Shown piece after piece: positions 7,951 to 64,000 of a stretch of 64,000 nucleotides of DNA. Below the pieces are notes generated by a model. The model made no database searches. It had not been told where the DNA came from and saw only the letters and a program-made list of their open reading frames with translations. The first letter of the stretch is position 1. Every line of letters begins with the position of its first letter. The DNA is from Tardiphaga sp. 709 (GTDB taxonomy: Bacteria; Pseudomonadota; Alphaproteobacteria; Rhizobiales; Xanthobacteraceae). A program made the translations under genes and the position numbers. The stretch is from positions 434,001-498,000 of the forward strand of contig NZ_CP135529.1 of NCBI RefSeq assembly GCF_032401055.1. The letters are read 5' to 3'.

Positions 7951-8598
7951 GTGTCACAGACTCCCACTCCATCCCTGCAGATCTGGGGCCGCGCCAATTC
8001 GGTCAATGTGCAAAAGGTTCTGTGGTGCTGCCATGAACTCGACGTCGCCTATGAGCGCATCGATGCCGGCATGCAATTTGGCCGTAACAGCGAGGCCGAC
8101 TATCTGGCGATGAATCCCAACGGCCGCGTGCCCACCTTGGTGCAAGGCGATTTCGTGCTGTGGGAATCCAATTCCATCATGCGCTATGTCGCCCTGGCCT
8201 ATGGCGCTACATCGCGCCTCTACCCATCCACGCCAAAGGTGCGCGCCGGGATGGAACGTTGGCTCGACTGGACACTGACGACACTGCAGCCGGCCGAGCG
8301 CCCGTTGTTCTGGGGACTGGTGCGGACGCCCGTCGCCGACCGCGACATGGCCGCGCTGCAGAAGGCTGCGGACGCCAATGCGGCACTGTGGGAGATGGTC
8401 GACCGGCAACTTTCCCATCAGACCTGGATGGAAGGCGACGATTTCAGCCTCGCCGATATCGCCATCGGTTGCTACGCACGGCGCTGGTTCGGTGTCGTGG
8501 GTGTCACGCGCCCTGCACTTCCGCATCTGCAACGCTGGTATCAGGTGATCTCGGCACGGCCGGGCTTCCAGACCTATGTCGCGCCGCCCCTCTCCTGA
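7951..8598 (+). CDS. Glutathione S-transferase
   Basis: 215 residues, GTG start. N-terminal thioredoxin-like domain (LQIWGRANSVNVQKVLWCCH), the cis-Pro region GRVPTLVQGD, the glutathione-binding WESNSIMRYV (E-S motif), then the all-helical C-terminal domain with the N-capping motif FSLADIAIGCYARRW. Conjugates glutathione to electrophiles; substrate not predictable. The usual N-terminal catalytic Ser/Cys is replaced by Asn-Ser around residues 16-17. Confidence 0.92.
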   Translation: MSQTPTPSLQIWGRANSVNVQKVLWCCHELDVAYERIDAGMQFGRNSEADYLAMNPNGRVPTLVQGDFVLWESNSIMRYVALAYGATSRLYPSTPKVRAGMERWLDWTLTTLQPAERPLFWGLVRTPVADRDMAALQKAADANAALWEMVDRQLSHQTWMEGDDFSLADIAIGCYARRWFGVVGVTRPALPHLQRWYQVISARPGFQTYVAPPLS

Positions 8599-8619
8599 AC
8601 GCAGGCGTTCGTTCGAACG

Positions 8620-8772
8620 TTAGTTCAGCGAACGTTCAAGCAGCAGGATGCCCATGATCACCACCAGCGTGATCGCGGCCACGACCAGGCGCATGGTCCA
8701 GTTCATGCCGCGGCCGATCCACCACAGCAGCGCGCAGCCCATCAATACGGGAATGACGATATCGGGGCGCAC
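8620..8772 (-). CDS. Small two-helix membrane protein
   Basis: 50 residues from a GTG 12 bases after the PilZ stop: two hydrophobic helices (IVIPVLMGCALLWWIGR and MRLVVAAITLVVIMGILLL). Position right behind the PilZ gene suggests co-transcription. Start codon uncertain. Confidence 0.5.
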   Translation of the reverse strand: MRPDIVIPVLMGCALLWWIGRGMNWTMRLVVAAITLVVIMGILLLERSLN

Positions 8773-8784
8773 GATCGTGGGGCC

Positions 8785-9039
8785 CTACGCGATGAAGCGA
8801 ACGCCCAGCGTCTTGCCGCGGCGCCAGACCACTTCACACATACGCCCGGTGCGTGCGTCGCGCGAGAAGGCCAGCTTCATCTTGTTGGGGACCGACGTGG
8901 GATCGTCGACGACGACCTTCGCGCCGGAGGTCGAGAGATCCAGCACATTGCATTGCCGGGCCGCGAATCCACCGTCCAGCGTGATCCATGCGGCCTGGTG
9001 TACGGACCGGCGTGTGTCGCGTTTTTTCGTCACTGCCAT
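8785..9039 (-). CDS. PilZ domain protein
   Basis: 84 residues, a single PilZ domain. It carries both c-di-GMP binding elements: RDTRR near residue 8 and the D-x-S-x-x-G motif in LDLSTSGAKV. Probably a c-di-GMP receptor acting by protein-protein contact; the target is unknown. Confidence 0.88.
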   Translation of the reverse strand: MAVTKKRDTRRSVHQAAWITLDGGFAARQCNVLDLSTSGAKVVVDDPTSVPNKMKLAFSRDARTGRMCEVVWRRGKTLGVRFIA

Positions 9040-9368
9040 CGCATCACTCCACGCCCCCGGGAGAGAGCCTTAAGCCTGCATGCTTTAAGAACCGTTGAGA
9101 GGTGCAGAAGAGTTCGAAATGTCCTGTGCACAAGGTCCGTGCGCCGCGCATGGGGATCATCCACCTGATCCCTCACCGCCCACTTGCCGACCCGAACAAA
9201 CGTCACTATACGTTCGGCCGCTGGCACCAAACTGATTTGCTTTCGGTCGGTGCCGCCCGCGATAGATCAGCCCTAAAGCTTTGATGTTGCGGCGATTTTA
9301 GAAATAGCCGTGCAGAACCGCGGTATCCTTGGCCTGATTTCGGGCCGCTGGATCGGCCGGGGTTTTTT
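9040..9368. other. Intergenic region without a supported gene
   Basis: About 330 bases upstream of tRNA-Glu. Short reading frames exist on both strands but none has an RBS or a recognisable product. The last 60 bases should contain the tRNA promoter; I see no convincing box. Confidence 0.5.
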
Positions 9369-9443
9369 GCTCCCTTCGTCTATCGGTTAGGACGCCACCC
9401 TTTCACGGTGGAGAGAGCGGTTCGATTCCGCTAGGGAGCGCCA
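9369..9443 (+). tRNA. tRNA-Glu (anticodon UUC)
   Basis: Full cloverleaf: acceptor GCTCCCT/AGGGAGC, D-arm GTC/GAC with GGTTA, anticodon stem CCACC/GGTGG around CTTTCAC (anticodon TTC), T-arm GCGG-TTCGATT-CCGC, discriminator G and encoded CCA. Its 3' end is repeated at 12240-12252, marking it as an integration hot spot. Confidence 0.97.
9430..9442 (+). repeat. tRNA 3'-end repeat, left copy (att-like)
   Basis: GCTAGGGAGCGCC, part of the T-arm/acceptor 3' half of tRNA-Glu, repeated exactly at 12240-12252. Direct repeats of tRNA 3' ends flanking foreign DNA are the usual scar of tyrosine-recombinase integration. Confidence 0.65.
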
Positions 9444-9765
9444 AAGCCGCCTTCCCCCAAAAATTCTTCAATGAATTCAAAGGTGTTTTCTGCGGCCGAT
9501 CTCCGTGTTGGACGTTTTGTTGGACGTTTTTCGGGGTCGCTTTTCCGCCTCCCGTTCACCGCCTTTGCGCCCGGTCTGGGGCCTCATCGACCCCGTGACA
9601 CAGTCCCCCACGCCGTTGCTGGCCGGCGCAATGCTCCACGGCGCGTTCACAGTCTATCGTGACGGCCTCCCCGCCATCCAATGCGCCGATAAGAGGCGAA
9701 TGGTTGCACAGCTGCTAACGGCGCTACGTGTCAGAAGGCGCCCTTAAAAAGCCTAGGGATTGCAG
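9444..9765. other. Non-coding stretch collinear with 12253-12370
   Basis: No gene supported. Two further blocks here, a 15-bp block at 9505-9519 and a 19-base block at 9645-9663, recur in the same order at 12308-12322 and 12345-12363 (18/19 in the second). With the att-like repeat this makes three collinear blocks at both ends of the 2.8-kb insertion, so one side is a diverged copy of the other. Confidence 0.5.
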
Positions 9766-17858: not shown

Positions 17859-19790
17859 ATGATGCCAGCAACAAAAAACGAACACGCCCCCCAACTTTTT
17901 GAAAGCGAACACGCCTACCGGCTTCTCGTTCAGGGCGTCACAGACTATGCGATTTATCTGCTCGACCCTAACGGCATTGTATCAAATTGGAATGCTGGCG
18001 CCGAGACGATCAAAGGGTATGGCGCAGAAGAGATCGTAGGCCAGCACTTCTCGGTGTTCTATCCCCCGGAGGATCGCGAAGCCGGACTTCCCAACGCCGC
18101 ACTAGAGGCCGCACGCCGGAATAAGCGGTTCGAAGCGGAAGGCTGGCGGATGCGGAAGGACGGTACGCGGTTTTTCGCGTCCGTGGTTATCGACGCCATC
18201 TATGAAAACGATGTGCTTGTCGGCTTTGCCAAGATCACGCGGGACATCACCGAACGGATGCAAGCCCGCTCCGCATTGAGCGAAAGCGAAAATCTTTTTC
18301 GCCTGCTGGTGAGCAACGTCACGGACTATGCGTTATACATGCTTGATCCGGAAGGTCATGTCACCAGCTGGAACCTCGGCGGTCAGCGGATCAAAGGCTA
18401 TCTTCCTGACGAGATTATCGGTCAGCACTTTTCGCGCTTTTATACCCCCGGCGACCGAGACGCGGGAAAACCAGCGCGTGCTCTCAGCATTGCACGTGAA
18501 AAGGGCCGTTACGAAGAAGAAGGCTTACGCGTCCGCAAAGACGGCACGTTCTTTTGGGCGAGTGTGGTCATTGATCCTGTGCGCAATGACGCAGGCGAGC
18601 TGATCGGGTTTGCCAAGATTACGCGCGACATCACAGAGCGACGTCAAGCAGCACAGCAGCTTGAACGTATGCAAAAGCAGCTGGCGGAAGCGCAGAAGAT
18701 GGACGCGCTCGGTCAGCTGACCGGCGGCGTGGCTCATGACTTCAACAACCTGCTTATGGCAATCGCTGGTAACGTTCGGCTGATCAAACGGCATGCCATT
18801 GTCCCCCGCGTGATCGAGGCAGCAGGAGCGATTGAGGCAAGCGTTCGTCGCGGCGCGGCACTTACTCGTCAGTTGCTGACGTTTGCGCGGCGTCAGCAAG
18901 TCGCTCCGACGCTGCTCAATCTTGAAGAGACCGTGCAAGCTGTACGCGAAGTCTTGGCTACCGTTCTGGGTAGCGCGATCAAGCTCGAAATCTCCGTGCC
19001 GGCCGGAGTTTGGCCAATCTTCGCGGATCCAACCGAACTCGAAACTGCACTCATCAATCTCAGCATCAACTCTCGTGACGCCATGCCCGACGGGGGCACC
19101 TTGACGATTACGGCAGCAAATTACCGAGTCAGGGATGGAGAGGATAAAGGCGAGTACGTGCAGATCAAGGTGGCCGATACCGGCGCAGGTATTCCCGAGG
19201 ATGTCATAGCGAAGGTGTTCGATCCGTTTTTCACGACCAAACCCGTCGGCAAAGGAACAGGATTGGGACTCTCACAGGTGCATGGCTTTGCCAACCAGGC
19301 CGGCGGTCGTGTCGAAATCCAAAGCGAGCTCGGCGCTGGCACGGAAACCACCATTCGGCTTCCGCGTGGCGAAGGCCATGCCGGTGCGCACGAAGCAGAG
19401 GTTCTGGCCAAAGGCGCCGGCAATGTCCTTCTTGTTGAAGACAATCCGGATGTTGCCACCGCCAGCGCCCTATTTCTGGAAGAGTTGGGATATCGCGTGA
19501 AATGCGTACCGGACGCGGAGTCCGCATTGCGCGAGATCGAGCACGACGGCATCGACCTCGTTTTCAGCGATGTCGTGATGCCTGGAAAAATGGATGGTCT
19601 CGGCCTGGCCCGCCATCTTAGGCAGAATTACCCGAACATCCCCGTCGTTCTCGCAACGGGCTACAGTGAAGCAGCGCTGAAACTCGGCTCAGAATTTCCA
19701 CTATTGCGAAAACCTTACGAGCTTCATGAGCTGAGTAGTGCCTTACGGACGGCCCTTAACGGCGGGGGGAAGGGCGTAATGTTAAATTGA
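17859..19790 (+). CDS. Hybrid sensor histidine kinase (PAS-PAS-HisKA-HATPase-REC)
   Basis: 643 residues, cytoplasmic (no membrane helix). Two PAS/PAC domains at about 15-130 and 142-262 are close duplicates (each contains IGQHF/VGQHF, FY and ends FAKITRDITER). HisKA with the phospho-acceptor His at about 293 in GGVAHDFNNLL. HATPase N-box NLSINSRDA, G1 DTGAGIP, G2 GKGTGLGLSQVHG. A C-terminal receiver (about 525-640) has VEDN, the acceptor Asp in FSDVVMPG, ATGYS and the Lys of RKP. Senses a soluble or redox cue, then phospho-relays internally. No partner regulator nearby. Confidence 0.95.
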   Translation: MMPATKNEHAPQLFESEHAYRLLVQGVTDYAIYLLDPNGIVSNWNAGAETIKGYGAEEIVGQHFSVFYPPEDREAGLPNAALEAARRNKRFEAEGWRMRKDGTRFFASVVIDAIYENDVLVGFAKITRDITERMQARSALSESENLFRLLVSNVTDYALYMLDPEGHVTSWNLGGQRIKGYLPDEIIGQHFSRFYTPGDRDAGKPARALSIAREKGRYEEEGLRVRKDGTFFWASVVIDPVRNDAGELIGFAKITRDITERRQAAQQLERMQKQLAEAQKMDALGQLTGGVAHDFNNLLMAIAGNVRLIKRHAIVPRVIEAAGAIEASVRRGAALTRQLLTFARRQQVAPTLLNLEETVQAVREVLATVLGSAIKLEISVPAGVWPIFADPTELETALINLSINSRDAMPDGGTLTITAANYRVRDGEDKGEYVQIKVADTGAGIPEDVIAKVFDPFFTTKPVGKGTGLGLSQVHGFANQAGGRVEIQSELGAGTETTIRLPRGEGHAGAHEAEVLAKGAGNVLLVEDNPDVATASALFLEELGYRVKCVPDAESALREIEHDGIDLVFSDVVMPGKMDGLGLARHLRQNYPNIPVVLATGYSEAALKLGSEFPLLRKPYELHELSSALRTALNGGGKGVMLN

Positions 19791-53723: not shown

Positions 53724-54091
53724 GGGCGCACAGCGCCGATCAGTGCGTTAATCTTCGCCTTGTCGTCGGGCGTCAGATACCAACCGACACGGAACTGCGT
53801 TTTGAGCTCGATCTGATGGAGACGCAGCCGTTGTCGAACGCGCCAGACGTAGACATCGAGCCCCTTGATCTGCGGTTGTTCGGCTTCCGGCCGATTGCCG
53901 TAGATCACCACATAGGCCGCCTCTCGACGGACCACCACGCGCTTCAGAAGCAAGCCGAGAATGACGCTGCAGATCGCAGGCATTCCGAAGACAGCGAGAC
54001 GATCGAGATCCTCTTTGCCGGCGCCGAGCAGCCCTTCCAGCTCTTCAATTCGGTCGCGCAGGCACTGGATTTCGGAGATTCCCCCGTGCAT
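53720..54091 (-). CDS. Winged-helix DNA-binding protein (OmpR-like fold) with coiled N-terminus
   Basis: 123 residues. N-terminal coiled coil (IQCLRDRIEELEGLLGAGKE). The C-terminal 75 residues match the PhoB/OmpR-type winged helix: LLLKRVVVRREAAYVVIYGN, then DVYVWRVRQRLRLHQIELKT-QFRVGWYLT, the last being the wing hairpin (T-x-x-R-[VI]-G-[YW]-x-L). There is no receiver domain. Likely a phage transcription regulator; could easily be mistaken for a membrane protein. Confidence 0.7.
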   Translation of the reverse strand: MHGGISEIQCLRDRIEELEGLLGAGKEDLDRLAVFGMPAICSVILGLLLKRVVVRREAAYVVIYGNRPEAEQPQIKGLDVYVWRVRQRLRLHQIELKTQFRVGWYLTPDDKAKINALIGAVRP

Positions 54092-55797
54092 CAGGCCGCT
54101 CCCTGCAGAACTTCATCGAGGTCGATCTGCCGCGGCGGATTGAGGTCGAGGTTGTAACCAAGGGTTCGTCCGTGACGACGCTCGCAGCGCTCGACATACG
54201 CCTGCAGCGCGCGCAGACGTGTGAAGCCATCGGCGGTCAGTGCCAGTTTGTCTTCATTCAGGACGGCAGCCTGCCCATCGCCGATGACGCCGCGGGCCAT
54301 GTCGGCTGGAATGGCGTCGCCGCTGGCGATGCAATGCAGCGCTTGCCACTCGACGAACTCATCATCCGATAGTTCGCGCTCAAACGCCGCGCGGAAGTCA
54401 CCAGCAGCCGCCTCGATCGCAGCTGAATCGGGCGCACTTTGCCGCGGATACAGCGTCAACGAATGCGCAACGACACTTTCGGTTTCATGTGAATTGACGA
54501 TCGACTGCAGCGGTTGACGGACGATCTCATCGAACGCCGACTTCTCATCGGACGTCAGCGCGCCCTGCGGAACGGAATTCAGCTCTTCCAGAATCACGCG
54601 AGCGGCATTGACTTCAGCCGAAGCGGCCGTCTCCGGCATGACTGAATCTGTAACGCCGGCATCGGCGGCGGCCTGCGCCTGATTACCCCATGCAATCCAG
54701 TCCGCCGGGAGTGGGTGTTCGGCATCGACGCGCGCGAACAGCTCCAGCACCGGCACGCCGCCGGTCATGCGCTGGATTACCTCACGATAGTGATCTGGCT
54801 TCCGGGAGTGTTCGCGCTTGCGCTCGCGATGGTTCGACTTGAACTTTTCATTGGTCGCCGGCTTGGGCAGCCCACGCCCGCGCTTGAACATCAGGAGAAC
54901 CTCGTCCTGATCAAAGACCAGCACGCCGCCACCCTGATCCAGCGGATGCTCCTCGTCGGTCTTGGTCCAGATGAAGGCCGTGGAATAGGCGTCGAAACCC
55001 CACGACTTCGCGACGGCCCATGCCAGCGGCATATCCACCGCGGCCATGATGATCTCGCCGGTGCGGACGTCGGTCACCTCGGTCTCGATTACATGCAGCG
55101 CGAGCATGTGTGCCCGCGGGATCCAGAGGAACAGCCATGCATCCGGGAGCAATCGCTCAGCGACCGGCATGGCGCAGATCTCGTCCCACGACATTGTCGG
55201 ATAGTGATTTTCATATGAACGGTTGGTAACGCCCTGGTCGCGGTGCCACGGCGGATCCGCATAGATGCATGGGACCTTCTGGCCGGTCGGCGATAGCGCC
55301 GTCGCATGCGACATGGCAGCCGCGAGATCCCGACGCTTCCGGCGTTGCTCGTTCTCGGCGTCGATCTTGAGCACATCGACGATGACGCGCCCCTCGCCGG
55401 CCTGCTCGCGCATCATGGCCATCAGCGCCTCAAAGCGCACCGGACCGATCTCAGCAATGCGCTGCGCCCGCGAGGACAGCTTGCGATCGATACCGGCCTC
55501 CGCCAGGGTCATCGGTTGAGTGCTGTACTCTTCAGGAACAGCACTCGCGGCTTTGCCGATGCCCGCCGCGCCGGTCGCGAGGCCTACGGATTCTCGCTGC
55601 TGGATGAGCATTTCGCCCAGCCGCCGCTCGGCCCGAACACGGATTTGCGCAGCGTTGATTTCCATGTCGCGGTTTTTGGCTTGCCGCGCATAAATTCGTA
55701 GCGCATCGGCTTTGCTGCGCATATCGAGCACTTCATCGACGGCCGCGGCCTCGGCGAGCATGCGGCACGCTTCGTCGTATTTGAGGACCTCGCTCAA
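54091..55797 (-). CDS. MT-A70-type adenine methyltransferase with ParB-like N-terminus
   Basis: 568 residues. N-terminal helical region with RVRAERRLGEMLIQQRESVG (about 50-120), then the MT-A70 catalytic block at 175-340: VPCIYADPPWHRDQGVTNRS (DPPW motif), DAWLFLWIPRAHMLALHVIE, GFDAYSTAFIWTKTDEEHPL and CSRKPDHYREVIQRMTGGVP-VLELFARVD. Methylates adenine in DNA (N6). A 180-residue C-terminal tail is rich in acidic helices and has no recognised domain. May protect phage DNA from host restriction or regulate phage gene expression. Confidence 0.9.
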   Translation of the reverse strand: MSEVLKYDEACRMLAEAAAVDEVLDMRSKADALRIYARQAKNRDMEINAAQIRVRAERRLGEMLIQQRESVGLATGAAGIGKAASAVPEEYSTQPMTLAEAGIDRKLSSRAQRIAEIGPVRFEALMAMMREQAGEGRVIVDVLKIDAENEQRRKRRDLAAAMSHATALSPTGQKVPCIYADPPWHRDQGVTNRSYENHYPTMSWDEICAMPVAERLLPDAWLFLWIPRAHMLALHVIETEVTDVRTGEIIMAAVDMPLAWAVAKSWGFDAYSTAFIWTKTDEEHPLDQGGGVLVFDQDEVLLMFKRGRGLPKPATNEKFKSNHRERKREHSRKPDHYREVIQRMTGGVPVLELFARVDAEHPLPADWIAWGNQAQAAADAGVTDSVMPETAASAEVNAARVILEELNSVPQGALTSDEKSAFDEIVRQPLQSIVNSHETESVVAHSLTLYPRQSAPDSAAIEAAAGDFRAAFERELSDDEFVEWQALHCIASGDAIPADMARGVIGDGQAAVLNEDKLALTADGFTRLRALQAYVERCERRHGRTLGYNLDLNPPRQIDLDEVLQGAA

Positions 55798-59139: not shown

Positions 59140-59185
59140 GTACACCCAATAATGGTTGACATTCCCTAATTAATGGGTGTACGTT
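59140..59185 (+). promoter_or_regulatory. brnTA promoter with paired operator
   Basis: TTGACA (59156-59161), 18-base spacer, TACGTT (59180-59185). Inverted repeat GTACACCCAATAA (59140-59152) and TTAATGGGTGTAC (59170-59182), 12 of 13 matching, brackets the -35 box and covers the -10 box. A typical autorepression site for the BrnTA complex. BrnT starts at 59192, only 6 bases after the -10 box. Confidence 0.75.
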
Positions 59186-59191
59186 ATTCCC

Positions 59192-59449
59192 ATGAGCAAG
59201 CCATACGACGAAGCCAAAGACGCCATCAACCTCGCCAACCACGGCATTTCGTTGGCCCGCGCGACCGACATGGTGATCGCCCGCTTTATCGTCGATGACC
59301 GCTTTGAATACGGCGAAACGCGCTATCGCGCTTGGGGCCACATCGACGGCCAGCCTCACTTCCTTGCCTTCACGATCCGCGATGGCAAGGTGCGCCCCAT
59401 CAGCCTGCGCCGCGCCCATGCAAAGGAGATGAAACGAAATGTCCGTTAA
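59192..59449 (+). CDS. brnT: BrnT-family toxin
   Basis: 85 residues: PYDEAKDAINLANHGISLAR, then FEYGETRYRAWGHIDGQPHF-LAFT and RPISLRRAHAKEMKRN, which is the BrnT pattern (K-x-x-x-N-x-x-K-H-G-[IV], then R-x-x-[ST]-x-R-x-A-x-x-x-E). BrnT has a RelE-like fold and cleaves RNA. Overlaps the antitoxin gene. The start at 59192 is favoured over the earlier in-frame ATG at 59177. Confidence 0.9.
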   Translation: MSKPYDEAKDAINLANHGISLARATDMVIARFIVDDRFEYGETRYRAWGHIDGQPHFLAFTIRDGKVRPISLRRAHAKEMKRNVR

Positions 59450-59786
59450 AAAGAAAACACCACCAGCCACCCACGACGACAACCCGGAATGGACGAAGGA
59501 CGACTTCGCCGCCTCGCGCCCGGCCGAAGAGTTGCCGCCGGAGATCCTCGCTCAGTTCAAAAACAAGCCGGGCCGGCCGCGCTTGGAAAAACCTAAGATC
59601 CCCCTGAAGATCCGGCTCGACGATGACGTGGTGACGGCGCTGCGAGCGACCGGGCCAGGTTGGCAGACGCGCGTCAATGATATGCTGAAGACGAAGATCA
59701 ATGACGGCAAGTTTGATTTCTCTTTATCTGACGAGACGTCCAAGCCTCGCCGGACAGCCGGCACCACGAAACGCAAGCGCGCATGA
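59439..59786 (+). CDS. brnA: BrnA-family antitoxin
   Basis: 115 residues. ATHDDNPEWTKDDFAASRPA is the BrnA N-terminal toxin-binding motif; the C-terminal RIRLDDDVVTALRATGPGWQ-TRVNDMLK is a ribbon-helix-helix DNA-binding domain. The tail is basic. Overlaps BrnT, as is usual for this toxin-first pair. Neutralises BrnT and represses the operon through the inverted repeat upstream. Confidence 0.88.
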   Translation: MSVKKKTPPATHDDNPEWTKDDFAASRPAEELPPEILAQFKNKPGRPRLEKPKIPLKIRLDDDVVTALRATGPGWQTRVNDMLKTKINDGKFDFSLSDETSKPRRTAGTTKRKRA

Positions 59787-60838: not shown

Positions 60839-63163
60839 GTGACCTTAGAAACCTTCCGGATCAGCTCTCATCTAAAGGACATAATCGGGCGGGACCTCGT
60901 GACGAACGAATTCGTCGCGATATTTGAGCTCGTCAAGAATTCGTTCGACGCGGGCGCAACTCGGGTCGAAATCGAGTTCGACCCTCACGATCGGACAATT
61001 GCCATCATCGATGACGGAAGCGGTATGACTGCCGCGGACATCCGAGATCGATGGCTTTTTGTTGCCTATTCTGAAAAAGCTCTCGCGGCACCCGAAAATT
61101 ACCGAGATAAGATCAAACCCGCGGGACAGTTCGCTGGCAGCAAAGGAATAGGCAGGTTCGCTTGCGACACGTTAGGCCGCGAGCTCGAACTATATAGCCT
61201 CGCGGCAGGCCGAAGCACGATCATCAAGCTTGAGATTGACTGGGCTCGTTTTGAGCATGACAGCACAGAGGAATTTCAACAAATCGATGTGACACTGTCG
61301 CCGGCCAAATCATTTCCTCCAATATACAACGCCGCGACGCCTGCGGACCATGGCACAGTCTTGTTGATTAAAGACACGCGACAAGATTGGGACGAAGTCC
61401 GAATTAGTCGGCTTCGCCGCGATCTCGCGAAACTGATCGACCCATTTGGTACGACCAAACACGTTACCGTCTCAACCTGGCTGGTTGATGATGAGCGAGA
61501 CTTCATCGATGGCGTGGACGGGCCCGTAGGCAATCAGATCGGAGATCTTCTCAGAGAGAAGACCAGCCGCATCGAAGTCGTCATCGAAAACGAGATAGTT
61601 CACACTACTCTATTCGACCGGGGGCGGAAGATATATGCCCTGCGTGAGCCGTCAGCATACGATGAGCTAAACGAGTGCAGGGTTGAGGGGCAAATTTACT
61701 TCTTGAATAGGTCCGCCAAGCAAACATTCACCACGCGGATGGGCGTGCGGCCTATTGAATTTGGTAGCGTGTTTCTTTTCTTAAACGGCTTTCGCATATT
61801 TCCAATAGGCGAGGAGTTTGATGACACGTTCGGCTTGAACCGCCGGAAGCAGCAAGGACAGGCGCGGTATCTGGGAACTCGCGACGTGATCGGGCGCGTT
61901 GACGTTACAGCCCGTCCCAAGCTTTTTCGCGAAGTTTCAAGCCGAGATGCCGGCCTCGTGGAGGATGCTCGCAGCCGCGCTTTGTATGACGCCATTCGAA
62001 AGCAGATGATTTTTCGGCTCGAACGCTATGTCGTCGGCGTCAATTGGCAAGACAGCCGCGATCAAGAACGTGACACGCCCGAGGGCCTAGAAACAGACAA
62101 GGCCCGCGAGCGCGTACTAGCCGTCGTAGGCTCCCTCGCGCGCTCGAAAGACACCGAGATCGTCTATTTTGATCAAGATCTGGTCCGCGTTTCCGATGAC
62201 CCAGACCAGATCACTGATTCAGCACTTAAGGCCATGTCTGAGCTCGCCCAAAATCAGGGAGACGCCAGACTCTTGCGGCAAGTCGAAGATGCTCGACGCC
62301 GCATCGAGGAGCTGAAATCTTCGCGGCAAGAGGCGCAAGACACTGCTCGGCGCGCAATGGAAGAGCGCCAGCGCGCAGACGCAATTATATCCAGATTGGA
62401 GCAGCAAGCGGCTTTTCTGGGAAGTAGCCGTGACGTCAATGTTGAGCGGGTGCAGTTACTTATGCATCAAGCAACGATTCATTTAGGGCATCTTCGCTCA
62501 GCTATCGTTAACGCGGCTCACGAAGTACGCAACGTACTAGAGGCAGCCACGGCGACCCAGGTGACTGGCGCTGATGATGACGTCGAGGACCTGTTAGCCT
62601 CGGTGCGACAATCCGCCAGACGCGCATCTGTTTCTATCGCGAGCGCAAATCTCTCTGGCGATAGACTACGGACCGTGCTGTCCTTCGCTCCGAACATTCG
62701 CGTCGATCTCGAAACGGATAAAGTTCATGGCGATCTGCTGAGATTTTTGAAAGAATATTTTGAGGTACGACTAGCCAACGTACCCGACATGCCAGCCGCC
62801 ACTTTTGAAGCCGCCAGCCTGTCATTGGTGAGAGACTTCTCACCCGTGGACGTCGCGGTTCTTATAGACAATCTTCTAGATAATGCTCGCAAAGCAAAAG
62901 CTTCGAAGATCGACTTCGTGACTTCTCGTAAAGGCCAAAGTTCCGTTGTTATTAGTGTTGTCGACGACGGTTTGGGTATCGACGAACGCAAAGTTGACCC
63001 AGCGAAGATATTCGAGCGCGGCTACACTGGTTCAGCCGGCGGGACCGGTCTTGGCTTGTACAGCGTCCGTCAAATTTTAGAAGGCATGGAAAGCACGATC
63101 GAGCTCGTCGGAGACGGCTCGCGGGCTGACTTTGAAATCACGTTATCGGGGGAAGCATCATGA
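60839..63163 (+). CDS. Dual GHKL ATPase protein (MORC/MutL-like plus histidine-kinase-like)
   Basis: 774 residues, GTG start. First ATPase (about 20-180): N-box E30-L-V-K-N34, D58-D-G-S-G62 and GSKGIGRFACD, as in MutL/MORC/Hsp90 proteins. A middle region 200-470 contains strand-rich VGVRPIEFGSVFLFLNGFRI. A coiled coil at about 474-525 (RLLRQVEDARRRIEELKSSR). A possible acceptor His near 560 in NAAHEVRNVL. Second ATPase (about 660-770): N-box IDNLLDNARKA, VVDDGLGID and GGTGLGLYSVRQI, as in sensor kinases. Translationally coupled to the receiver gene at 63160 (ATGA). No membrane helix; cytoplasmic. Function not known; defence or signalling suggested by context. Confidence 0.88.
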   Translation: MTLETFRISSHLKDIIGRDLVTNEFVAIFELVKNSFDAGATRVEIEFDPHDRTIAIIDDGSGMTAADIRDRWLFVAYSEKALAAPENYRDKIKPAGQFAGSKGIGRFACDTLGRELELYSLAAGRSTIIKLEIDWARFEHDSTEEFQQIDVTLSPAKSFPPIYNAATPADHGTVLLIKDTRQDWDEVRISRLRRDLAKLIDPFGTTKHVTVSTWLVDDERDFIDGVDGPVGNQIGDLLREKTSRIEVVIENEIVHTTLFDRGRKIYALREPSAYDELNECRVEGQIYFLNRSAKQTFTTRMGVRPIEFGSVFLFLNGFRIFPIGEEFDDTFGLNRRKQQGQARYLGTRDVIGRVDVTARPKLFREVSSRDAGLVEDARSRALYDAIRKQMIFRLERYVVGVNWQDSRDQERDTPEGLETDKARERVLAVVGSLARSKDTEIVYFDQDLVRVSDDPDQITDSALKAMSELAQNQGDARLLRQVEDARRRIEELKSSRQEAQDTARRAMEERQRADAIISRLEQQAAFLGSSRDVNVERVQLLMHQATIHLGHLRSAIVNAAHEVRNVLEAATATQVTGADDDVEDLLASVRQSARRASVSIASANLSGDRLRTVLSFAPNIRVDLETDKVHGDLLRFLKEYFEVRLANVPDMPAATFEAASLSLVRDFSPVDVAVLIDNLLDNARKAKASKIDFVTSRKGQSSVVISVVDDGLGIDERKVDPAKIFERGYTGSAGGTGLGLYSVRQILEGMESTIELVGDGSRADFEITLSGEAS

Positions 63164-64000
63164 ATCTCGACTTCGGAATCCTATGGATTGAAGACTCATG
63201 GAGCCCCGAGGAAAGCGAGACCCTCAAGCGACGCATTAGGGAATCCGGGTTCATCGCCAGAATTGAGACGATCGCAAACAGCAAGCGAATTGAAGACTTA
63301 GCCCGTGCACATAACCTGTACCACAAATACGACCTTATCCTCCTCGACTATCGCTTGCAGGACGAGAACGGAGACGAGATCGCTCCTCGCGTGCGCGCTT
63401 TGTTTCCATCCACAAACATACTTTTTTATTCGGGAACGGTTGACGAGCAGTCCCTCCGAGAACTGATTGCAAAGCAACAGGTCGAGGGCGTTTATTGCAG
63501 TCATCGTTCCCGCTTCATTGATCGCACCGGCTCGCTCATAGACCAAACGGCGAGAGCGTTGGATCGGCTTTCTGGCATGAGGGGGCTGGCCATGAGAGTT
63601 GTCGCCGAGTGCGACACGCTAATGAAATCAGCAATGCTCTCGATGTGCGAGCGGGACCCAAATTGCGTTGCTAAAGTGAGCGATCTTGATAAAGACGTTT
63701 TAGACTTCATAGCCAGCATGCAAAAAAAATATGAGCTCGCGATTTCCGGTGATCTTAGTGCACGGATCGATACGCGAGCCGTGGACTCCTTAAAGTTGTT
63801 CAAGCATTTTCGACGTTTGACGCAGATTGCCGCGACGGCACCTGCCACGTTTGGTATAAACGAAGCTGGGGTCGAGCGTTTGCGAGAGCTTCGGAGACAG
63901 AGCGCTCAATACAATGAGAACGTTTTAAACAAACGCAACGTCTTGGGTCACGTCGTTGAAGTGCAAAGCGACGATGGTTGGGTACTAAAGGGTAGCGATG
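63160..64000 (+). CDS. Receiver-domain protein, partial
   Basis: At least 280 residues, continues past the window. Receiver (about 5-120): E11-D12, the acceptor-position D63 in LILLDYRLQ and S91 in ILFYSGT. The usual K/P near 115 is replaced (YCSHRSRF). After the receiver comes a helical region of unknown fold (RRLTQIAATAPATFGINEAG). ATG overlaps the GHKL stop, so both proteins are made from one mRNA. Acts presumably as the partner of the GHKL protein. Confidence 0.85.
   Translation, partial: MNLDFGILWIEDSWSPEESETLKRRIRESGFIARIETIANSKRIEDLARAHNLYHKYDLILLDYRLQDENGDEIAPRVRALFPSTNILFYSGTVDEQSLRELIAKQQVEGVYCSHRSRFIDRTGSLIDQTARALDRLSGMRGLAMRVVAECDTLMKSAMLSMCERDPNCVAKVSDLDKDVLDFIASMQKKYELAISGDLSARIDTRAVDSLKLFKHFRRLTQIAATAPATFGINEAGVERLRELRRQSAQYNENVLNKRNVLGHVVEVQSDDGWVLKGSD

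Follow-up and report, generated by a model that had tools for sequence, protein, structure and literature searches.

Histidine kinases of the HEF_HK family and their Response_reg_2 receivers (Pfam PF19191 and PF19192) are the closest described counterparts of the genes reported here. According to the accessible text of Bellieny-Rabelo et al. (2021; PMC8011034), 174 of 222 HEF_HK kinases have a two-ATPase layout, receivers are linked in 91.6% of 644 regions, genes for a cytosine-C5 methylase (C5-methylase) and for Vsr are neighbours, and the kinases are linked to the paraMORCs. The receivers are described there as having no further known domain, and nucleoside triphosphate (NTP) sensing and possible control of restriction-modification (R-M) were proposed. 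In the accessible parts of two earlier papers, paraMORCs were placed in R-M systems (Iyer et al. 2008; PMC2292703), and paraMORC-HEPN (Ymh) fusions were noted in R-M loci, with their resemblance to PrrC and RloC pointed out (Anantharaman et al. 2013; PMC3710099). Here we describe a related locus in a 64,000-nucleotide stretch of the Tardiphaga sp. 709 genome (contig NZ_CP135529.1, positions 434,001 to 498,000, or G000:C1:434001-498000 in our numbering; hereafter the window). As judged from gene content, the conserved set is a three-gene module of predicted C5-methylase, sensor kinase and receiver-effector (Table 1). We give just short of an even chance to the interpretation that this module is a prophage-carried alarm system, in which the methylase would act together with a kinase bearing a MORC-like ATPase and a receiver bearing a HEPN RNase.

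The architecture of a two-ATPase kinase with a receiver and a C5-methylase has been in print since 2021 (PMC8011034). Like HEF_HK/Response_reg_2, the family of our locus has a kinase with HATPase_c_3, an H-box and HATPase_c, an adjoining receiver, and C5-methylase and, in part of the loci, Vsr neighbours. An earlier sequence-only reading of the window had called this a non-standard two-component layout, which is true, although the layout had already been described for the HEF_HK kinases counted above. Unlike HEF_HK, none of 12 of our kinases matched PF19191 (E ≤ 0.01) and the Tardiphaga kinase did not match it at E ≤ 1; unlike Response_reg_2, its receiver scored 19.1 against 27 bits with PF19192, for which its own genome gave no match at 1e-5. 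Filing the pair as HEF_HK/Response_reg_2 was rejected because both Pfam models were missed, and we therefore place it as a sister lineage. The eight PF19192 proteins that were found lie in open frames of 567-817 amino acids (aa), and RNxxxH was absent from the C-terminal parts of the four of the eight for which motifs were listed. New here are the likely effector, the methylase as third partner, the acceptor histidine H543 and the prophage boundaries.

Eight of 150 related genomes, including that of Tardiphaga sp. 709, gave matches at 1e-10, and the only near full-length kinase outside that genome was in G055, at 40% identity. The search patterns hit 366 stretches of genome contigs, and 321 of these encode relatives; the best 80 were used, and by their record titles these include Alpha- and Gammaproteobacteria, Bacteroidota, Acidobacteria and one Lysinibacillus. 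In IMG/VR, 14 viral-contig loci matched, 10 of them near full length and four at 71-73% identity, which favours residence in prophages. Phage records contained 3 partial matches only. In plasmid records the receiver had no match at E ≤ 0.01, and 95 records matched the kinase, none with 80% coverage. In one viral-contig relative, L037, a transposase-like open reading frame (ORF; 8102-9586, minus strand) splits the kinase gene, with the methylase and receiver still present.

The sequence-only reading had proposed that two GHKL ATPases lie in one 774-residue protein, and this was upheld. Pfam placed HATPase_c_3 at residues 25-147 and HATPase_c at residues 672-769, both above cut-off, with E-values of 3.2e-25 and 1.1e-21, respectively. 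We aligned 90 kinases, namely 93 extracted sequences minus the interrupted L037 and L082 and L085, which duplicate L028 and L034. At the N-terminal ATPase, D58 was kept in 90 of 90, E30, N34 and K102 in 89, and G60, G62, G103 and G105 in 89-90. At the C-terminal ATPase, N678, N682, G735, G737 and G739 were kept in all 90, D709 in 89, G711 in 89-90 and G713 in 87; one viral-contig relative among the 90 (L036) no longer has the D-x-G box in its aligned C-terminal ATPase. With catalytic residues conserved to this extent, a chance match seems unlikely for either ATPase. K294 is also invariant (90/90), and by analogy we take it to be an S5-type lysine. The sequence-only reading had placed a possible acceptor histidine near residue 560. 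H561, however, is histidine in only 16 of the 90 kinases, whereas H543 is the sole invariant histidine of the H-box region (90/90, followed by Gln in 79), and the predicted acceptor is H543. This pattern of conservation indicates that both ATPases and one phosphoacceptor are under selection.

Residues 15-205 of the kinase matched the N-terminal part of the BbrUII/HgiDII restriction enzymes (NCBIfam NF050001, E 6e-24), at 84.5 bits against a cut-off of 550 bits, and the N-terminus also resembled MutL, more weakly. Unlike BbrUII/HgiDII, the remainder of our kinase is a coiled coil and a histidine kinase. A GHKL N-terminus in an R-M-like context, a trait of paraMORCs, is present in our kinase loci.

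The kinase stop codon overlaps the receiver start, as the sequence-only reading had stated: the two ORFs share 4 bases, and a receiver hidden Markov model (HMM) detected the partner directly 3' of the kinase gene in every one of the 80 genome loci. Within these 80, the L048 receiver is split in two, and contig ends truncate those of L104, L119 and L121; these four were left out, and the other 76 were aligned with ours (n = 77). The adjoining stretch 3' of the window, L002, was used to complete our receiver gene, and reading beyond position 64000, as had been advised, revealed the rest of that gene (316 aa) and a further partner, the C5-methylase. Response_reg was detected above cut-off (Pfam, E 1.4e-7; 280 in-window residues scanned). 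The modelled N-terminus has the REC fold (mean predicted local distance difference test score, pLDDT, of 82 for the whole protein), and with the full receiver as query the best Foldseek matches were response regulators and the matches listed were mostly REC proteins. The retention of D63 and S91 and the loss of the usual lysine, all claimed earlier, proved to be features of the family: D63 is kept in 77/77, position 91 is Ser or Thr in 77/77, and the usual lysine position is Arg116 in 75, with Lys in one and Gln in one. An acidic residue, Glu or Asp, occupies position 11 in 72 of 77 receivers (5 gaps), and R141 and G142 are invariant (77/77). The hallmarks of His-Asp two-component systems are thereby present as an invariant phosphoacceptor histidine, intact kinase motifs and a REC acceptor aspartate; the conserved REC lysine is not kept (1/77). 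A predicted His-Asp relay from the kinase to the receiver is well supported by these residues.

Downstream of the REC domain, the model of the 189 C-terminal residues shows a helical bundle in which a hairpin follows a conserved motif (pLDDT 85). This motif is R-N-x-L-[AG]-H, with R259 and H264 invariant (77/77), N260 in 71, L262 in 64, and Ala or Gly at position 263 in 77 of 77. The Rx4-6H motif typical of HEPN domains is present, with invariant arginine and histidine. Weak Pfam matches among 59 members included Abi_2 (3), HEPN_RiboL-PSP (2, best E 3e-4), HEPN_MAE_28990 (2), Abi_C (1) and HEPN_Swt1 (1), together with Tfb5 (2), which ties with RiboL-PSP and MAE_28990. PADLOC matches of members included Csx1 (3), Cas13a (2), Cas9 (2), Csm6 (1) and AbiD (1). 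The clearest signal came from hhalign comparison with Abi_2. With 23 sequences taken without a motif filter, the score was 29.3 over 115 columns, against 12.6 and 12.8 for reversed controls, and in this register the receiver RNxLAH sits on the RNxxAH of Abi_2. Four other settings gave 22.7-30.0 against 12.6-13.1, one of them covering 86 columns. Sets chosen by motif, in which ORFs were picked by R-x-H and long ones trimmed, so that the motif was favoured, comprised 11 of 14 loci for RiboL-PSP, 22 of 26 for Abi_2 and 5 of 12 for DUF4145 (unfiltered 11, 23 and 6). The motif-chosen Abi_2 set scored 28.3, and across the Abi_2 comparisons most settings gave a collinear alignment of 113-121 columns; an early small Abi_2 set had scored 16.8 against a control of 12.2 (sets of 7, 12 and 2 sequences). 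The maximum of sixteen non-HEPN comparisons was 20.3. A PDB profile search gave nothing significant; residues 1039-1074 of 6dtd, which we take to be Cas13b, appeared at E 1.7 and are suggestive at most. PF18739 had no match anywhere searched.

Several observations weigh against the interpretation of the receiver as a relay-controlled HEPN protein. In the REC domain, D12 is Asp in 61 of 77 receivers and Asn in 11, with 5 gaps. Our own receiver has no HEPN Pfam match at E ≤ 1, and 76 Pfam families matched some member, mostly as unrelated singles, one of them at E 2.3e-4 (PTRF_SDPR). The RiboL-PSP score of 27.3 over 100 columns was obtained with motif-chosen sequences and fell to 22.0 over 12 columns without the filter, and one reversed RiboL-PSP control reached 134, an anomaly at 5% identity that was gone in two of four other settings. 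MAE_28990 scored 23.0 against 16.6, but with a set of two proteins that lie where RiboL-PSP members do and are not independent of them, and DUF4145 (5-6 sequences; 10.0 and 10.5) and Ymh (4 sequences; 12.1) were at control level. A Foldseek search of the C-terminal model against the PDB gave no match at E ≤ 0.001 and no recognised HEPN among the matches listed. On balance, we consider that the C-terminal domain is probably a HEPN ribonuclease.

The absence of a HEPN fold match in Foldseek would also suit a different reading, in which the pair signals to control R-M genes, the role put forward for HEF_HK/Response_reg_2 in PMC8011034, and the C-terminal helical domain is a non-catalytic output. 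The architecture and the methylase/Vsr neighbourhood shared with HEF_HK/Response_reg_2, as given in the accessible text of that paper, favour it. However, Pfam scans found no DNA-binding domain in the receiver, and the motif arginine and histidine are invariant in 77 of 77 although the C-terminal domains of 58 other members are only 11-54% identical to ours.

Behind a few related kinases (L035, L040, L041 and L042), other receivers of 229, 429-443 and 452 aa were found without the RNxLxH motif; near the place where it would align, the receivers of L041 and L042 carry an R-x5-H (RYNKMLH). This suggests possible swapping of effectors on the same sensor.

The methylase matched PF00145 (E 7.6e-49) and TIGR00675 (above cut-off), and its gene lies tail-to-tail with the receiver gene, overlapping it by 126 bp. 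Across 92 loci, in which L034 and its duplicate L085 were both counted, a C5-methylase is present in 87 and lies within 2.5 kb in 86. Its placement in these 86 was convergent downstream in 53, co-directional upstream in 23 and other or mixed in 10; the 3' ends overlap in 52 of 55 convergent cases (median 87 bp), with the split L048 among the three exceptions. Five loci show none, and for three of these (L049, L050 and L083) a nearby contig end does not account for it. Pairwise distances in 65 non-redundant loci correlated between methylase and kinase parts (rho 0.41-0.55; 0 of 300 permutations reached each value) and between receiver and kinase parts (rho 0.41-0.56). The methylase-kinase co-variation shows apparent co-inheritance rather than contact, no control gene having been compared. 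In G055, the module is preceded by Vsr and followed, further on, by another C5-methylase-like gene and a restriction endonuclease of the SacI type (PF09566, E 9.6e-30; L028 12922-15596).

Neighbouring genes were surveyed with a crude ORF caller. The nearest ORF on each side (130-599 aa) gave 127 proteins, and the second ORF on each side (170-599 aa) gave 72 proteins from 51 of the 80 loci, six near-duplicate loci being omitted. Vsr accounted for 16 of the 127 nearest neighbours and every other family for at most 3; nuclease families besides Vsr reached at most 2 of 127 (HNH, 2) and at most 1 of the 72 second-nearest, where only Resolvase and Phage_integrase reached 3. No recurring restriction-endonuclease family was found in the two nearest ORFs per side, although diverse endonucleases could be missed there as singles because of that diversity. 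The methylase and neighbour counts therefore indicate a constant set of methylase, kinase and receiver-effector without a recurring endonuclease family adjoining. This leaves the proposed regulator of R-M genes with no recurring endonuclease family to regulate, and we regard that reading as improbable.

Vsr was present in 26 of the 92 loci (HMM from two seeds), a count that speaks against an alarm function to the extent that it would also suit repair. In such a reading, the MORC-like ATPase, as part of a MutL/Vsr-like device, would coordinate repair of the deaminated 5-methylcytosine that arises from the methylase. The frequency of Vsr among nearest neighbours and the MutL-like N-terminus of the kinase fit this. 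On the other hand, 66 of the 92 loci, including ours, show no Vsr, and the kinase-receiver relay and the RNxLxH motif are left unexplained. A repair role is in our judgement very improbable.

The sequence-only reading had located the module beside a prophage. It lies instead inside one, at the integrase end of an att-bounded element of ~57.5 kb that contains terminase and portal genes. Six same-genus loci were compared, and in two (L184 and L185) the tRNA-Glu site is empty and both flanks meet with a 14-bp overlap; flank identities are 96% and 98% in L184 and 95% each in L185. L183 shows just the right flank plus 18 bp of the junction, and L186-L188 nothing but the right flank. In G010 (L183 ~2064-2081) the tRNA-Glu junction is followed by DNA other than the left flank, possibly because something else has inserted there. 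The right copy of a 26-bp repeat found at both prophage ends lies just outside the integrase gene, and the copies are possibly integrase or excisionase arm sites. Other cargo includes an unexpected PAS-HisKA-HATPase-REC hybrid kinase (window 17859-19790), a second DNA methyltransferase (54091-55797, minus strand; PHROG 359 at residues 259-395 of 568) and a BrnT/BrnA toxin-antitoxin pair (59177-59786; Pfam E 1.8e-17 and 6e-21). The BrnTA pair and the metallophosphoesterase named earlier as neighbours are both real, but neither is among the first 25 families listed for the nearest, or for the second-nearest, neighbours of the relatives. A scan for promoters and terminators gave counts near shuffle level (2 versus 2.6; 8 versus 5.9, s.d. 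2.8).

Residence in prophages and the tail-to-tail overlap of methylase and effector genes in most convergent loci could also be expected of a selfish device for addiction and lysogeny maintenance. Here the kinase-RNase pair would attack the host upon loss of the methylase, and with it the prophage, as a type II R-M endonuclease can. The five loci without a methylase, three of them not near a contig end that would explain it, argue against this. Since addiction and alarm would use the same parts, present data do not separate them; we hold addiction to be unlikely, if less so than control of R-M genes.

Table 1. Coordinates of the module and of the prophage boundaries. Positions are those of the window unless L002, the adjoining 3' stretch, or protein residues are given.
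Feature	Position	Strand	Basis or detail
Sensor kinase gene	60839..63163	+	ORF, GTG start, 774 aa
Kinase domains	MORC/HgiDII-like GHKL ATPase ~6-205, region to ~400, coiled coil, H-box with H543, C-terminal HATPase_c 672-769 (residues)	+	Pfam, NCBIfam, conservation
Receiver-effector gene	63160..64000, continuing to window-equivalent 64110 (L002 4111)	+	ORF, 316 aa
Receiver domains	REC 1-~130 (D63); helical C-terminal domain with R259-N-V-L-G-H264 (residues)	+	Pfam, conservation, models
C5-methylase gene, 3' end	63985..64000; other end window-equivalent ≤65358, start codon not settled	-	ORF and PF00145
attL core	9430..9443		Last 14 bases of tRNA-Glu (9369-9443)
attR core	L002 6924-6937 (window-equivalent 66923-66936)		14-base core
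26-bp direct repeat, exact, contains short tandem	9506..9531 and L002 6816-6841		Just inside both prophage ends
Integrase gene	L002 5474-6805	-	PHROG integrase E 4.7e-20; under Pfam cut-off

In the accessible literature on paraMORCs of R-M systems, an N-terminal GHKL domain likewise occurs beside DNA methylases, and in some paraMORCs a HEPN effector is fused. Unlike in the Ymh-HEPN fusions, the HEPN-like domain of our module belongs to a distinct protein, the receiver, with a predicted phosphorelay as the link. The GHKL-Shedu protein VcSduA/paraMORC3 shares the N-terminal GHKL ATPase; in contrast to ours, its output in the accessible text of PMC12137116 is a fused PD-(D/E)xK nuclease, without a kinase or receiver. 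In phage PhiR44_1 (L012 7983-11031), a gene named paraMORC3 adjoins a convergent Dcm, which is the same layout with another output. DefensePredictor (PMC13092281) has HATPase and REC among the abbreviations for predicted systems in its Fig. 6F, which may denote our family. A receiver-HEPN effector had no recognised description in the literature searched, which was mostly open-access and is weak evidence of absence. The Detocs name did not occur in the PADLOC listings for our proteins and receivers, although it was not checked that this release includes Detocs models. Detocs is a kinase-receiver phage defence system in which the phosphorelay ends at a fusion of receiver and toxic enzyme; its effector and kinase differ from ours.

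Together, these comparisons show a conserved module whose predicted ATPase and relay residues are intact and which is located in a prophage. The defence or conflict role suggested by the sequence-only reading is made more plausible by the C5-methylase partnership, the prophage residence and the probable HEPN effector; the role itself stays conjectural. In the alarm system that we propose, the C5-methylase would mark DNA as self. The N-terminal MORC/HgiDII-like ATPase of the soluble kinase may read the state of DNA or of infection, because its relatives act on DNA with nucleases and methylases, and the trigger may be unmethylated, unmarked, damaged or invading DNA. The coiled coil would then transmit an ATP-driven change to the C-terminal kinase, and this kinase would phosphorylate first H543 and then, on the receiver, D63. 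Once phosphorylated, the receiver would switch on its C-terminal HEPN ribonuclease (R259/H264), and RNA cleavage may arrest the cell or block a competing phage, by abortive infection or superinfection exclusion.

A more specific form of this proposal, which we advance only tentatively, is restriction by signalling. The endonuclease of an R-M system would be replaced by a MORC-ATPase kinase that tells a receiver-HEPN RNase of unmethylated DNA through a His-Asp relay, and the module would be a prophage-carried device for superinfection exclusion or suicide in proteobacteria and beyond. If true, self marking by R-M, MORC/MutL-type ATPases that sense the state of DNA and a two-component phosphorelay would be joined to one HEPN toxin output, and a DNA methylase could serve self/non-self recognition without DNA cutting. 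It would also provide a testable function for the relatives of those 'two-component-like' genes, associated with R-M, that were published in 2021 without an effector or a trigger.

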